This document shows, piece by piece, positions 22,041 to 33,122 of a stretch of DNA of 64,000 nucleotides; positions within the stretch are counted from its first letter, which is position 1, and every line of letters begins with the position of its first letter. A program made the position numbers and the translations under genes. Origin of the DNA: Saprospiraceae bacterium (lineage in GTDB: Bacteria > Bacteroidota > Bacteroidia > Chitinophagales > Saprospiraceae). The notes under the pieces were generated by a model. It ran no database searches. It had not been told where the DNA came from and saw only the letters and a program-made list of their open reading frames with translations. The stretch spans positions 1 through 64,000 of the forward strand of contig JAEUUU010000130.1 of assembly GCA_016787345.1 (NCBI GenBank), read 5' to 3'.

Positions 22041-22129
22041 GATAACGGTTAGATGTGCGACGTGGCGGCGAGCGTTGGGTTGGCGATCTGGCTATTCGGC
22101 GGCATGGACAACATGCCAGGGTTAAGTGC
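22041..22129 (-). other. Putative attC-like site of the ADP-ribosylglycohydrolase cassette
   Basis: On the minus strand the site begins near GCACTTAAC (complement of 22121-22129), which matches 7 of 9 positions to the complement of the same cassette's start (GTTAGGTTC, complement of 22907-22915). It ends near CCGTTATC at 22041-22048. The two arms are only weakly complementary (about 15 of 27 positions), so this is the least certain of the three sites. It overlaps the gene's stop codon. Confidence 0.35.
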
Positions 22130-22892
22130 TGTATTTACTTTTGAACTCTTCAATTATTATTCTAAATTCTTTCGGTAAATATTCGTTCATTTTCTCTATG
22201 AATTCTTGGGGTATCGATTTATAATATGCTTCTGAAATTGCACCTGTCATAGACGCAATTGTATCACTATCTCCTCCAATCGAAATTGCCGTTCTAATTG
22301 CATCTTCAAAATTCTCAGACTCTAAAAAAGCAATTATAGATTCTGGCACACTTCCTTGACAACTAACATCAAATTCGTAAATAGATCTTATTTCATCTAT
22401 CGTTCTGTTCAAATCATAACAAAATTTATCTTCTATAAATTCTTTAATCTCTTGCTTTTCCCTTCCATTTTTAGCAAGAAATACAGATATTGCAATTGCT
22501 TGTGCCCCTTTAATGCCCTCCTCATGGTTGTGTGTTATTACGGCACTCTTTTGAGCCTCCTCCAAAACTTTTTCCATTTCATCAAATGCAAATCCTATTG
22601 GACTTACTCTCATAGCCGAGCCATTTCCCCAACTATTATACGGGCCACTGATTATTCCTGCTAACCATCTTTTAAAAGTTCCTCCGTAACCAGCAAATGG
22701 ATAGGTCCTTCCATATTTTTTTACCGTTTTTTCATATCCTTTGGAATTTAGGATGCAATCTGCTATCGCAATGGTTAATACAGTATCATCAGTATACTTT
22801 GATTGTTTTGTAAACAATTCAAAATCTTTGCTTTTTAGATTCTTCTTTTCAAATCTGGAACCTACTATGTCTCCAATTATTGCACCTATCAT
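22122..22892 (-). CDS. ADP-ribosylglycohydrolase (DraG/ARH family)
   Basis: The 256-residue protein has the metal-site motifs of the family: TDDT at 34-37 and GGDSDT at 206-211, with GNGSAMRVSPIG at 90-100. Such enzymes remove ADP-ribose from proteins or small molecules using two Mg ions. The length is typical. The gene is strikingly AT-rich compared with its surroundings and sits in a putative cassette bounded by attC-like sites, so it is probably horizontally acquired. A TIR-domain protein, potentially an NAD-consuming enzyme, lies two genes away in the same array. A link through ADP-ribose chemistry is speculative. Confidence 0.9.
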   Translation of the reverse strand: MIGAIIGDIVGSRFEKKNLKSKDFELFTKQSKYTDDTVLTIAIADCILNSKGYEKTVKKYGRTYPFAGYGGTFKRWLAGIISGPYNSWGNGSAMRVSPIGFAFDEMEKVLEEAQKSAVITHNHEEGIKGAQAIAISVFLAKNGREKQEIKEFIEDKFCYDLNRTIDEIRSIYEFDVSCQGSVPESIIAFLESENFEDAIRTAISIGGDSDTIASMTGAISEAYYKSIPQEFIEKMNEYLPKEFRIIIEEFKSKYST

Positions 22893-22908
22893 TCTGTTTG
22901 TTTTTAGA

Positions 22909-23043
22909 ACCTAACGTTCCCCGGCTTAGCGAAGTGCGGGCATTCGGGGCTGTGTCCGCCCGTTAAGGTACAAAAGCTAAATAGGATTATCAAAGCCGAG
23001 TTTTAGGGCTGTCCGCCCGCATTTTGCTAAACCGGCGTTGTGT
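22909..23043 (-). other. Putative attC-like recombination site
   Basis: Read on the minus strand the site runs from ACACAAC (complement of 23037-23043) to GTTAGGT (complement of 22909-22915), the latter fitting the integron core consensus GTTRRRY. Internal arms at 22921-22941 and 23015-23035 are complementary at 18 of 21 positions, leaving a long spacer. The left core complements the start of the lipoprotein cassette, as expected for a cassette's own site. The region lacks any gene. Confidence 0.5.
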
Positions 23044-23056
23044 GCAGTAAAGGTCA

Positions 23057-23656
23057 TTATTTTATTTTAACAGGTTCAAAAGTTGGTGGTAATTTTTCAA
23101 GTTTTGGCAAAGGTCCTGATTCAGCAATGTATAATTGTTTTAGTTGTTCTGAATAGTCTTTTAGGTTTATTGAGTCAGAAGCCTTTGTCGCTTGAAATAT
23201 CACATTGTCAAGTAGTGTAATGAGAGTTTTAATTTGTTGTGGGCTATTATTCGGTATAAATTGAATCTTTTTTCTATAATTATTGTCTGTTTTTTTATAG
23301 TTAATGCAATATGTGAAACCGTCATATAAAAAACCATCATTCACTTTCCAAGAATAGTCTGCATTAAAGTCTTCACTCCGAAATGTTGAGTCAATTAGTT
23401 TGAATAAGTTATCGTTTATGTCGCCTTCAAAATATTTTGGCGTGTCCATAAAACTGTCGTGTCGCATTAAAACAAAGTGTCCACTTTTATTAATGTCTAT
23501 ATGGTGAGCTAAGTAAAATTCAAAAGTGTCAACCTCTTGATTAATATGCCAAGAGTAAGCAGAATATTTAAAATTCTCTATCACCAAAGCTTTTGTAGGT
23601 CTTTGAGTACAGGAAAACAATGTCAAACTAAAAGTTATGAAAAGTAGGGACTTCAT
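23057..23656 (-). CDS. Putative lipoprotein of unknown function
   Basis: The start at 23656 is preferred to an in-frame Met 12 bp upstream, giving 199 residues with a lipoprotein signal peptide (MKSLLFITFSLTLFSC). The mature protein has no motif I recognise; it is polar and mixed alpha/beta in appearance (YSAYSWHINQEVDTFEFYLA, YDGFTYCINYKKTD). It is strongly AT-rich. It is flanked by near-identical 15-bp inverted repeats at 23036-23050 and 23658-23672 (14 of 15 positions), which fits one gene per mobile cassette. The second repeat ends 2 nt from the start codon. Confidence 0.65.
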   Translation of the reverse strand: MKSLLFITFSLTLFSCTQRPTKALVIENFKYSAYSWHINQEVDTFEFYLAHHIDINKSGHFVLMRHDSFMDTPKYFEGDINDNLFKLIDSTFRSEDFNADYSWKVNDGFLYDGFTYCINYKKTDNNYRKKIQFIPNNSPQQIKTLITLLDNVIFQATKASDSINLKDYSEQLKQLYIAESGPLPKLEKLPPTFEPVKIK

Positions 23657-23664
23657 TTTATTGC

Positions 23665-23799
23665 ACACAACGTTTTTGCGCTTGGCGTTCGTGAGGGATT
23701 TCAGAGCACAAAACTGTCAACCCAGCACTAAAGTTGATTTGAAAAACTGAACTTGAATTTAAGCACTTCACCCCGCATGACGCCAAACGCATGTTACCG
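23665..23799 (-). other. Putative attC-like recombination site
   Basis: On the minus strand this runs from CGGTAAC (complement of 23793-23799) to GTTGTGT (complement of 23665-23671). Inner arms near 23676-23697 and 23771-23792 (cores TTGCGCTTGGCG and CGCCAAACGCA) are largely complementary. The GTTACCGGTA core at its 23.8-kb end pairs with the start of the TIR cassette at 24610-24624 (14 of 15 positions), again the relation expected between a cassette's start and its own attC. Confidence 0.5.
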
Positions 23800-23815
23800 G
23801 TAGTTATTCTTTCTG

Positions 23816-24598
23816 TCATAAGATGTCGTTTGCGTCAACGGAAATACCAAGAGCTTTTAATTCTTTAACCAAGTCAAACTGCCATTTACCCGTCTTGTCA
23901 AAGGGAACGAACAATACGCCACTGTAGTCAGATGGAATTTCGAAGTCGTTTTCTAATTCGTGTAATGCTAAAACTCTTTCTCTTCCTAATTTTCCGATAA
24001 AATACCCTAATTCAAAAATAACATTTTGTCGAGCCCTGTATTTTGCCGTTTCGGGTTTCTCGTTTTTATTGTATGAAATGTCGTCAGCTGAAAGAAGTAC
24101 AACGGCAAAGGACACATCGGAATTCTCCGTGAATTTTTCAATTATAGTTTTCCCTTTGCTAGGTTGCTCGTGCAATATTATTGGATTTAGTTTCAATTTC
24201 TCAATTGTCCTCGCAGCAGCTAATTTCATTTCATCATTATGTCCGTGTACAATAAAAACATTGTTAGATGTCGGTGCTGACTTGTCTGGTTGTTTATTTG
24301 GCTCATTGATAACCGTGTCTAATTGAAGGTCTTCTGCTATTACGTTTAGGAGATTTAGCAATTGCTTTTTACCACTATTAAAACTACTTTCAAATACACT
24401 GTCAGGCGTTCCAGTCGTCCAAATGCTAGGTGAATATTTAATGTCTTTTAAAGACTTCAGATAATGTGTTTTATCTCCAAATATTTTTCGCAGCAACATT
24501 TCCGCTCTTTTCTCAACAGCATCAAGTTGTCCGTTTCGGTATGCAATCTGTTCGGCTTGTCTTATTAAGTCCTGTATAAGGTCTAAGTTTTTACTCAT
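23816..24598 (-). CDS. TIR-like (Cap12/Pycsar-type) nucleotide-binding effector protein
   Basis: This 260-residue protein has a helical N-terminal region (1-105) and a C-terminal TIR-like domain of the predicted nucleotide-binding family COG4271/PF10137 (about 112-235). Key segments are NNVFIVHGHNDEMKLAAAR, VVLLSADDISYNK and ARQNVIFELGYFIGKLGRER. Glu196 in the FELGYF motif is placed like the catalytic Glu of NAD-cleaving TIR domains. Members act as NADase effectors in CBASS and Pycsar phage defence, but no cyclase is seen next to it, and the N-terminal region is not an obvious cyclic-nucleotide sensor. It is AT-rich and lies in a putative integron-like cassette. Confidence 0.8.
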   Translation of the reverse strand: MSKNLDLIQDLIRQAEQIAYRNGQLDAVEKRAEMLLRKIFGDKTHYLKSLKDIKYSPSIWTTGTPDSVFESSFNSGKKQLLNLLNVIAEDLQLDTVINEPNKQPDKSAPTSNNVFIVHGHNDEMKLAAARTIEKLKLNPIILHEQPSKGKTIIEKFTENSDVSFAVVLLSADDISYNKNEKPETAKYRARQNVIFELGYFIGKLGRERVLALHELENDFEIPSDYSGVLFVPFDKTGKWQFDLVKELKALGISVDANDIL

Positions 24599-24660
24599 GT
24601 GTCGTCTTTATAATTACCGGTAACTCGTTAATATGCGCACTTTTTGAATTGCGCAATATA
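24599..24660 (-). other. Cassette boundary upstream of the TIR gene
   Basis: The core ATTACCGGTAAC at 24613-24624 marks the start of the TIR cassette. Beyond it, TATGCGCAC and TTGCGCAATA at 24633-24658 form further imperfect inverted segments, so this could be part of another attC-like site or of an attI. The next gene on that side is a truncated SSB. Confidence 0.35.
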
Positions 24661-24762
24661 AAGGTAAAAAGTCCTTTTAAGTTGTGCATGATTTAAGGAA
24701 ATATTTTTTAAAATTCAGTAAATCAATGTTTTATCAGAGTGAAGGGTAAGAGCGTTTTTTTA

Positions 24763-24826
24763 AAAACAATACAAAATGCGCGTTGCGTTCTTTTGTATTG
24801 TTTTACTCTCACAATACAAAATGCGC
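24763..24826. repeat. Inverted and direct repeats of ACAATACAAAATGCGC
   Basis: A perfect 14-bp inverted repeat (24763-24776 with 24791-24804, core AACAATACAAAA) surrounds a 14-nt loop. A direct copy of ACAATACAAAATGCGC follows at 24811-24826. The last residues of the SSB remnant are encoded by this repeat, so it marks where that gene was truncated. Confidence 0.6.
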
Positions 24827-25120
24827 AATGTGCCAGTCCTCTTTCTTATCCAAAAGTATCAGTTCTTCGCCTACTAATTCCGTCACGTATCGTTTAACGC
24901 CTTGTTTTTCCTCAAAAGAACGGGTAGGGTTTTTCCCTTCCAAGTGTATCATGCTCCCTTTTTTCAGGTGTTTCTCTGCCAATTCTGCCAAACCACGCCA
25001 CAATACAATGTTGTGCCATTCTGTTTGTGAATGGGTTTGTCCCTTATCGTCCTTGTAACTTTCAGTGGTAGCCAACGAGAATTTAGCCACTTTCACATTA
25101 CCTTCTAAGGTCTGTACCAA
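24809..25120 (-). pseudogene. ssb: Truncated single-stranded DNA-binding protein
   Basis: The frame encodes LEGNVKVAKFSLATTESYKD, TEWHNIVLWRGLAELAEKHL and RYVTELVGEELILLD, clearly an SSB OB-fold. The first 18 or so residues (the usual LNKVILIGNVG strand) are missing, there is no ATG, and a TGA lies two codons before the only possible (TTG) start. The C-terminus is replaced by residues encoded by a local repeat and lacks the acidic tail. It is probably a remnant left by rearrangement at the edge of the accessory block. Confidence 0.7.
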
Positions 25121-32338: not shown

Positions 32339-32397
32339 CCGCTCATCGCAGCAATGCGACGGGCCCATAGCTCAGACGGTTAGAGCGGCTGACTCAT

Positions 32398-33079
32398 TAA
32401 AGGATGTTCTTTGAATTTTTGAAAGTGTTCAACCTATGAAACTCTGCGTAGTATGTCACAAGCCTTTGAGCGCGCAAAAACAAAAATTTTGCAGTAATTC
32501 ATGTAAGCAAAAAGAACATTACGATCGCCTGAAATTGCAAACCAATACTTATCATTCTCAAACAATACGATCATTGATAAGAAAAATCAAGTTGGTTGAA
32601 ATGTTAGGAGGTAAATGTTCAAGATGTGGCTACAATGCCAATTTATCTGCATTGCATTTTCATCACCGGGATCATTTAGAGAAATCCTTTAAGCTAGATG
32701 TTAGAGTACTCTCGAATAAAAGGTGGGAGTTTATTTTGACTGAGGCAAGAAAATGTGATTTGCTTTGCGCCAATTGTCATGCAGAAGTTCATAATCCTGA
32801 ACTCACTTTTGAAAATGTTCAAAAAATTATCCACGGTGCCTCCCACCGGAAACGGCGGGATGAGCAGGGGGTTAATTCAGGGAACTCTTAAACTTGCCAA
32901 AGCAGGAATGACAACCCTGAGCCAAGTCCGGCGAAAAGTCATTACAGTAACCGGGAAGGTGCAGAGACTAAAGGGTGAGGAGACTGACCAATAAGCCCTT
33001 CGCGAACGCCCCCCGCCTAAGTCCTTACAGGATATGGCGATGATATAGTCCTACCCCATCGCGAAAGCGTTGGAAGGTG
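32398..33079 (+). ncRNA. Group I self-splicing intron in tRNA(CAU)
   Basis: The 682-nt intron follows a T at the 5' splice site and ends in G at 33079, both group I hallmarks. Conserved core elements appear in order: P (TTAATTCAGGGAACTC, about 32871-32886), Q (AACCCTGAGCCAAGTCC, about 32913-32929), R (GTGCAGAGACTAAA, 32960-32973) and S (ATGATATAGTCC, about 33040-33051). The spacing from Q to R and R to S is normal. An HNH endonuclease gene occupies the 5' half and runs into the P element. Group I introns in tRNA anticodon loops are known in cyanobacteria and proteobacteria; one in this phylum with an HNH gene seems less usual. Confidence 0.88.
32436..32891 (+). CDS. HNH homing endonuclease encoded in the group I intron
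   Basis: This 151-residue protein has an N-terminal zinc-finger-like CxxC...CxxxC (C4, C7, C19, C23) and an HNH domain with C61/C64, H76-H77 and LLCANCHAEVH (C111, N113, C114, H115, H119). Such enzymes cut intron-less alleles and promote intron homing. The gene is AT-rich compared with the host. Its last 20 or so bases overlap the P element of the ribozyme core, so the C-terminal residues are constrained by RNA structure. No clear ribosome-binding site is seen. Confidence 0.82.
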   Translation: MKLCVVCHKPLSAQKQKFCSNSCKQKEHYDRLKLQTNTYHSQTIRSLIRKIKLVEMLGGKCSRCGYNANLSALHFHHRDHLEKSFKLDVRVLSNKRWEFILTEARKCDLLCANCHAEVHNPELTFENVQKIIHGASHRKRRDEQGVNSGNS

Positions 33080-33122
33080 AATCAGATGGTCGCGGGTTCA
33101 ATCCCTGCTGGGCCCACAAAAG

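Follow-up and report, generated by a model that had tools for sequence, protein, structure and literature searches.

A tRNA gene with the anticodon CAU is split at its U36/A37 junction by a 682-nt group I intron, which contains an open reading frame for an HNH endonuclease. The gene occupies positions 32361–33116 on the + strand of the window, the 64,000-nucleotide stretch of Saprospiraceae DNA that was analysed as a whole and that belongs to a 5.28-Mb genome of 191 contigs. Probably, a phage-derived HNH gene was gained by a resident group I intron in this gene, which is apparently the sole tRNA-Ile2(CAU) gene of the genome. Self-splicing and homing are proposed for the resulting element. Its parts are as follows; the names P, Q, R and S are those that we take to apply to the core elements.

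32361–32397, + strand: 5' exon of the very probable tRNA-Ile2(CAU), last base U36
32398–33079, + strand: group I intron (RF00028), 682 nt, terminal base G
32436–32891, + strand: HNH endonuclease ORF, 151 aa, in the P1 loop between 5' exon and guide, reaching 57 nt into the ribozyme
32835–32838, + strand: probable internal guide GGUG (GGTG invariant in 11 introns)
32841–32860, + strand: P2 hairpin with GAAA loop, 6 of 8 pairs changed on both sides
32867–32871 (5' strand) and 33009–33013 (3' strand), + strand: P3 of the core model
32874–32884, + strand: P element of the core
32877–32882 with 32915–32920, + strand: P4, inside the P and Q elements
32912–32926, + strand: Q element of the core
32959–32970, + strand: R element, containing the P7 5' strand (32966–32970)
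33042–33051, + strand: S element, containing the P7 3' strand (33046–33050)
33056–33073, + strand: P9 hairpin with GAAA loop, 4 of 6 pairs changed on both sides
33080–33116, + strand: 3' exon of the very probable tRNA-Ile2(CAU), A37 to discriminator A73

The intron boundaries are set by U36, the terminal G and a 7-nt anticodon loop, and they are the same in homologous introns. A preliminary description of this DNA had placed a group I intron with an HNH gene directly behind the anticodon of a CAU tRNA, with a T in front of the intron, a G at its end, all of P, Q, R and S present and a well-folded spliced product. Its coordinates are exact and the individual features were recovered. RF00028 matches positions 32779–33073 with 71.4 bits (E 3.8e-16, gathering score 50), U36 precedes the intron, G ends it and the four core elements were located as listed. 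The joined exons form a cloverleaf with the anticodon CAU in ARAGORN (a 3' CCA was added; the gene encodes CCA incompletely). One mismatch is present, G.A at 27:43. It also occurs in two intronless congeners and thus looks like a trait of the lineage rather than decay. Without introns ARAGORN finds no tRNA in the window; allowing introns, it detects the split gene but moves the boundary and labels the tRNA Gln(ctg).

A model of P2, P3, P4, P6, P7, P8 and P9 was compared with 500 shuffles using 11 homologous introns. In the model 97.8% of the cells are paired (shuffled mean 88.3), 14 pairs have changes on both sides (shuffled mean 7.0) and the covariation score is 0.345 (0.134 in shuffles). None of the 500 shuffles reaches any of these values. 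Further pair types number 30 versus 25.6 in shuffles, a value reached by 13 of 500. Sliding the partner strand lowers pairing to 54.1% or less. P7, four of the five P3 pairs and four of the six P4 pairs are invariant and therefore uninformative on covariation. Together, the RF00028 score and the covariation identify a group I core with P3, P4 and P6–P9 as well as P, Q, R and S. U36, the GGUG guide and the terminal G are found across the 11 homologous introns. The guide can pair with C34, A35, U36 (U.G) and the first intron base, which puts a U.G pair at the splice site. The GAAA loops on P2 and P9 presumably resemble those of the Azoarcus intron, which we take to lie at the same site after the anticodon; such a resemblance would be in keeping with subgroup IC3. 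Most likely the intron is self-splicing: it would excise itself by two transesterifications, with the guide pairing to CAU.

The ORF inside the intron matches HNH families of PHROG (best PHROG 2255, 1.1e-20). Its score against Pfam HNH is under the cut-off (12.9 versus 21.4 bits), and the homologue of phage L097 scores above it. The cysteines, histidines and one asparagine expected at an HNH site are invariant in eight aligned proteins. The PHROG matches and these residues indicate an HNH motif with metal-binding cysteines. The predicted fold has a mean pLDDT of 70.1, residues 134–151 being among the least confident. With this model, Foldseek found no significant match in the PDB (best 4h9d, an HNH nickase, E 3.8).

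Homologous HNH ORFs are present within the same intron in L056, L095 and L096. In total, two of the nine Ile2 introns of the family set carry the gene, and two more copies come from MAGs (one Saprospiraceae, one Bacteroidia). In all four copies the gene lies between the 5' exon and the guide and its reading frame is open. In the window, the overlap of ORF and ribozyme begins with the first base of the guide and ends with the stop codon at 32891, a length of 57 nt. The C-terminal residues of the protein are thus specified by the guide sequence together with strands of P2, P3 and P4. Three of the four copies extend beyond the first P4 strand and L096 ends in P2. The ribozyme-encoded tail is absent from the phage homologues. 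An excerpted report describes core creep, in which an ORF extends into the ribozyme through loss of its stop codon (PMC3073962). Judged from the sequence, the overlap in the window matches this process.

The HNH ORF up to the guide has a GC content of 35.1%, compared with 54.3% for the ribozyme and 55.6% for the window. A GC content as low as this occurs in 17 of 1273 sliding segments of equal length; the 399-base stretches of lowest GC (down to 30.6%) lie at about 22100–24950. On the ribozyme tree, which is poorly resolved, presence and absence of the HNH gene do not cluster, so the gene may have been gained or lost more than once. Ahead of the ORF, the string GTTCTTTGAA is found at 32406–32415. 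It is also present, whole or nearly so, near tRNA-CAU in phages L097 and L099, and presumably resembles a boxA site.

A scan of viral contigs with a two-sequence HNH alignment yielded five loci. In all of them the HNH gene is free-standing and adjoins an intact tRNA-CAU gene. The set of relatives was enlarged by further scans and by 11 phage records chosen from 103 matching ones, with repeated contigs excluded. The count comprises 48 free-standing rows, near-copies included; the fragment L123 was dropped and L171–L177 stand outside it. A tRNA gene lies within 150 bp of the HNH gene in 40 of the 48 rows, the others being L115, L116, L117, L147, L148, L149, L153 and L158. Six of L171–L177 were scanned: five loci hold at least five tRNAs each and L174 holds one.

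In a 16-row tree (midpoint root), the four intron HNH proteins group together (support 93/92) within a larger group (99/100) that includes seven free-standing phage proteins, although the inner branches of this CAU clade are weak. Five relatives beside other tRNAs fall apart from it. The support of the intron group is 96/92 in a 43-row tree. All seven phage genes of the CAU clade, among them the near-copies L099 and L100, have tRNA-CAU within 70 bp; of the remaining 41 free-standing rows, 2 have one within 150 bp. The pair C4-G69 is present in the neighbouring tRNA of L097, L099, L100, L101 and L107 and absent in L108; L122 was counted neither way. The seven loci yielded no group I intron. In phage L097 the gene order is tilS, HNH, tRNA-CAU. 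The tilS gene (2270–2992) is directly upstream of the HNH gene and was recognized by TIGR02432 with 120.7 bits (cut-off 93.6), so a single phage carries the HNH gene along with both the tRNA and the enzyme that modifies it.

These neighbourhoods suggest that the ancestors of the intron's HNH gene were free-standing homing genes of phages, located next to tRNA-CAU and directed against it. A resident intron without an ORF would have taken up such a gene in its P1 loop, and the ORF would then have grown into the ribozyme. The opposite direction, in which the phage HNH genes originated within tRNA introns and came to lie next to tRNA genes after leaving them, is unlikely. Homing genes can leave introns, and the branching order inside the CAU group is mostly unresolved, which leaves room for such an escape. 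Against it, the wider HNH family is mostly free-standing by phage tRNAs (the 40 of 48 rows, near-copies included), the intron copies are one small group within this family and the phage proteins lack the ribozyme-encoded tail.

The genome of the window contains three RF00028 introns, in tRNA-Ile2, tRNA-fMet and tRNA-Leu(UAA). The fMet intron (L002, 1044–1768) follows U33 and holds a PD-(D/E)XK ORF (PF11645, 164 bits). The Leu(UAA) intron (L003, 1407–1757) follows U34 and is ORF-less. A candidate for an intact fMet gene in the same genome, a single anticodon-arm match, looked by eye like part of a protein gene. For the PD-(D/E)XK relatives of the fMet-intron enzyme, no adjoining CAU tRNA was found in the three phages examined, out of 24 matching records.

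Within the family, 39 of 199 genomes contain RF00028 introns. The hosts of the 57 introns are tRNA-fMet (22), tRNA-Leu(UAA) (20), tRNA-Ile2 (9), tmRNA (4, by eye) and tRNA-Arg(UCU) (2). These kinds were assigned from the exons because a boundary shift makes ARAGORN mislabel all nine Ile2 and 17 of the 22 fMet cases. ORFs of at least 100 residues are present in six fMet, two Ile2 and four Leu introns, an 84-residue ORF in L083 being left out; seven of the nine Ile2 introns are ORF-less. Intact Ile2 genes were searched with a 43-base pattern that reaches the anticodon stem and allows up to three mismatches. It matched in 142 of the 199 family genomes; the pattern is incomplete, since 57 genomes have no match at all. 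None of the nine genomes with an Ile2 intron has an intact match. In a tenth genome (G035) an interrupted Ile2 5' exon lies at a contig end. The genomes G040 and G141, of the same genus as the window, have intronless Ile2 genes. Likewise, G155 is intronless at Ile2 and is a congener of the HNH-bearing G062. The neighbour of tRNA-Ile2 in G141 matches the neighbour in the window with 54.7% identity, the tRNA being in opposite orientation. A search of 395 phylum genomes with the Ile2 3'-junction pattern gave L092 and L093 besides the window; these were rejected as chance matches, as no intron is present there.

We propose that the HNH protein is a homing endonuclease that would cut intronless tRNA-Ile2 genes, upon which intron and ORF would be copied in. 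It is improbable that the intron is instead old and immobile and the HNH ORF a passing insert without a homing role or a splicing helper. The ORF-less state of seven of the nine Ile2 introns in the family set and the low Pfam HNH score of the window protein would fit such an insert, but the invariant C, H and N of the HNH site in the eight aligned proteins, the open frame in all four intron copies and the differing presence of the intron between congeners argue against this reading.

A second HNH family shows the same pattern at another tRNA. Its members are encoded in L071 and L079, two long tRNA-Leu(UAA) introns, and their similarity to the window protein is confined to the catalytic domain (BLASTP aligns 12 residues; profiles align 58 columns with 63% probability). 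The best 80 viral homologues among the matches listed, chosen by protein only, form 54 clusters at 90% identity. Since the phages are related, the 54 representatives are not 54 independent cases. Among these representatives of the best 80 matches listed, 50 are tied to tRNA-Leu(UAA): 26 lie beside an intact gene, eight beside a copy interrupted by an intron that spans about 200 nt and lacks an ORF, and 16 inside an intron of the gene (five on the opposite strand). One of the others is beside another tRNA and three have no tRNA. In the same set, all 26 intact tRNA-Leu(UAA) genes are within 150 bp of the HNH gene, compared with 19 of 141 other tRNA genes. The exon ends served to identify the anticodon UAA, because ARAGORN misnames three of the ORF-less cases.

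The R and S motifs are present in order in all 24 predicted viral introns among the best 80 matches listed. As controls, the boundary filter accepted 0 of 80 shuffled loci and 1 of 24 other phage loci (L122). For the eight ORF-less viral introns of this set, RF00028 matches seven at E 0.01 (not L191), six of them above the gathering score. The 16 HNH-containing viral introns respond less clearly: one (L217) exceeds the gathering score within its predicted span, two are weak (L194, 28.0 bits; L237, 23.6 bits) and 13 gave no RF00028 match. A Leu intron profile built from 17 ORF-less introns (8 phage, 9 bacterial) matches all 16 in the predicted span and strand, with best E-values per locus from 1.5e-38 to 5.1e-9, and none of 16 block-shuffled loci.

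According to this profile, the HNH gene is ahead of the whole core or most of it in L182, L195, L200, L207, L214, L217, L235 and L256. It is in mid-core on the same strand in L192 and L259 and in mid-core on the opposite strand in L194, L213, L237, L255 and L260; L189 was assigned neither way. The varied points of entry and the two orientations favour repeated capture. In pairs that differ in the intron, for example L246/L250 and L220/L203, the DNA of the HNH region is 81% and 88% identical, respectively. The labels for tRNA adjacency do not cluster on the Leu-HNH tree (17 changes, shuffled mean 18.9), and most of the 'none' labels in that test were later explained as interrupted tRNAs. A third HNH type (L061/L085) has its nearest viral relative in L262, 3 bp from tRNA-Leu(UAA), whereas the locus of the other relative, L263, contains no tRNA.

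The states seen side by side at Leu(UAA), together with the free-standing gene, the ORF-less intron and the composite at Ile2, make the gain of a phage-derived HNH gene by a resident ribozyme the most likely course. In collaborative homing, as described in part of a published account, an ORF-less intron becomes mobile once it is joined by a free-standing endonuclease that has adapted to an intron site (PMC2988022). Both tRNA patterns fit this published route. The likeness lies in a free-standing endonuclease and an ORF-less intron that would join at the same site. The cases in the excerpted account are phage protein-coding genes, whereas the partners of the two HNH families are tRNA genes of phages and bacteria. 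There is an even chance, in our estimate, that phage tRNA clusters are the place where mobile tRNA introns arise. HNH families specific to one tRNA (Ile2 or Leu(UAA)) would be free-standing there, join ORF-less introns at the same site, enter repeatedly at different places and pass to bacterial tRNA genes. One pattern recurs at two tRNA genes in two families that share only the catalytic domain, and at one of these genes the proposed intermediates can be seen. Collaborative homing is thus testable with purified proteins and short DNA targets.

The identification of the host as tRNA-Ile2 is very probable. It is based on the pairs C4-G69 and C5-G68, which we take to be marks of tRNA-Ile2 meaningful to TilS, on a genome-encoded TilS (173.5 bits, cut-off 93.6) and on separate genes for the other two CAU tRNAs. 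The genome search gave 32 tRNA matches, 31 of them above the cut-off, and ARAGORN was run on 30. The one intact CAU tRNA among these 30 loci is an elongator-type Met with G4-C69 (L011), and fMet (L002) is interrupted by its own intron. The preliminary description had likewise named tRNA-Ile2 and had suggested a search for further CAU tRNAs; that search leaves its assignment standing. It is highly improbable that the split gene encodes elongator tRNA-Met, since ARAGORN, which calls the spliced product Met(cat), names by anticodon only, and C4-G69 with C5-G68, the separate Met and fMet genes and the presence of TilS all stand against it.

No second, intact Ile2 gene was found in this 94.27%-complete assembly, in which the 43-base pattern matches the interrupted gene only. 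Because of this completeness and because several other tRNAs are missing, the status as sole copy is likely but unproven. The spliced tRNA would be modified by TilS to read AUA, which accounts for 11 of 164 Ile codons in six genes of the window. The cell therefore likely depends on splicing of this intron to read AUA. In this one bacterium, intron splicing appears to be required for three tRNAs: the initiator, the one that reads AUA and one for leucine.

The preliminary description had also pointed to introns in the same tRNA elsewhere. Such cases are published for Acidovorax and Burkholderia in the tRNAscan-SE 2.0 paper (PMC8450103), and the Azoarcus pre-tRNA-Ile carries a group I intron as well (PMC3984707). 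These introns share with the window intron the tRNA and presumably a small core with GAAA loops on P2 and P9. The window intron differs in its occurrence in Bacteroidota, in the HNH ORF in P1 and in the two further tRNA introns of its genome. The tRNA-fMet intron of Synechocystis PCC 6803 has an endonuclease ORF in P1 that overlaps the ribozyme by 61 nt, compared with 57 nt in the window (PMC3073962). According to the same partial text, the tRNA (fMet) and the nuclease (PD-(D/E)XK) are different from those of the window intron. The Synechocystis-like type is instead carried by the fMet intron of the window genome. SegB of phage T4 is also a free-standing homing endonuclease within a phage tRNA cluster (PMC2988022, PMC13096335). 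It is a GIY-YIG enzyme for which the excerpts of these sources mention no tRNA intron, whereas each HNH family is tied to one tRNA kind.

A literature search covering mainly freely accessible papers turned up no description of an HNH ORF in a tRNA-Ile2 intron, nor of a phage tRNA intron that has an HNH gene as its partner nearby; this is weak evidence that the HNH gene and its phage relatives at the same tRNA kind are the new part. The phage HNH genes beside the same tRNA kind suggest how mobile tRNA introns are built. As far as the available part of a 2014 review goes, all phage introns known by then were in protein-coding genes (PMC3984707). The viral contigs analysed here show group I introns in phage tRNA genes.

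Several further observations concern related loci. Phage tRNA-Leu(UAA) genes that contain group I introns occur in the viral contigs L203, L219, L230, L241, L250, L253 and others. The introns in tRNA-Arg(UCU) (L078, L087) are ORF-less, and a phage HNH clade (e.g. L133–L144) adjoins tRNA-Arg(UCU); this may be a third pair of HNH gene and tRNA. At one tmRNA subsite, group I introns are reported only from Saprospiraceae in the accessible part of a recent paper (PMC11915505). Near the tRNA-Leu HNH locus of L192, positions 542–1026 match GOLLD RNA with 81.3 bits (gathering score 150). A second predicted group I intron in L255 (714–982; RF00028 59.5 bits at 762–964) is separate from the intron that holds the HNH gene.
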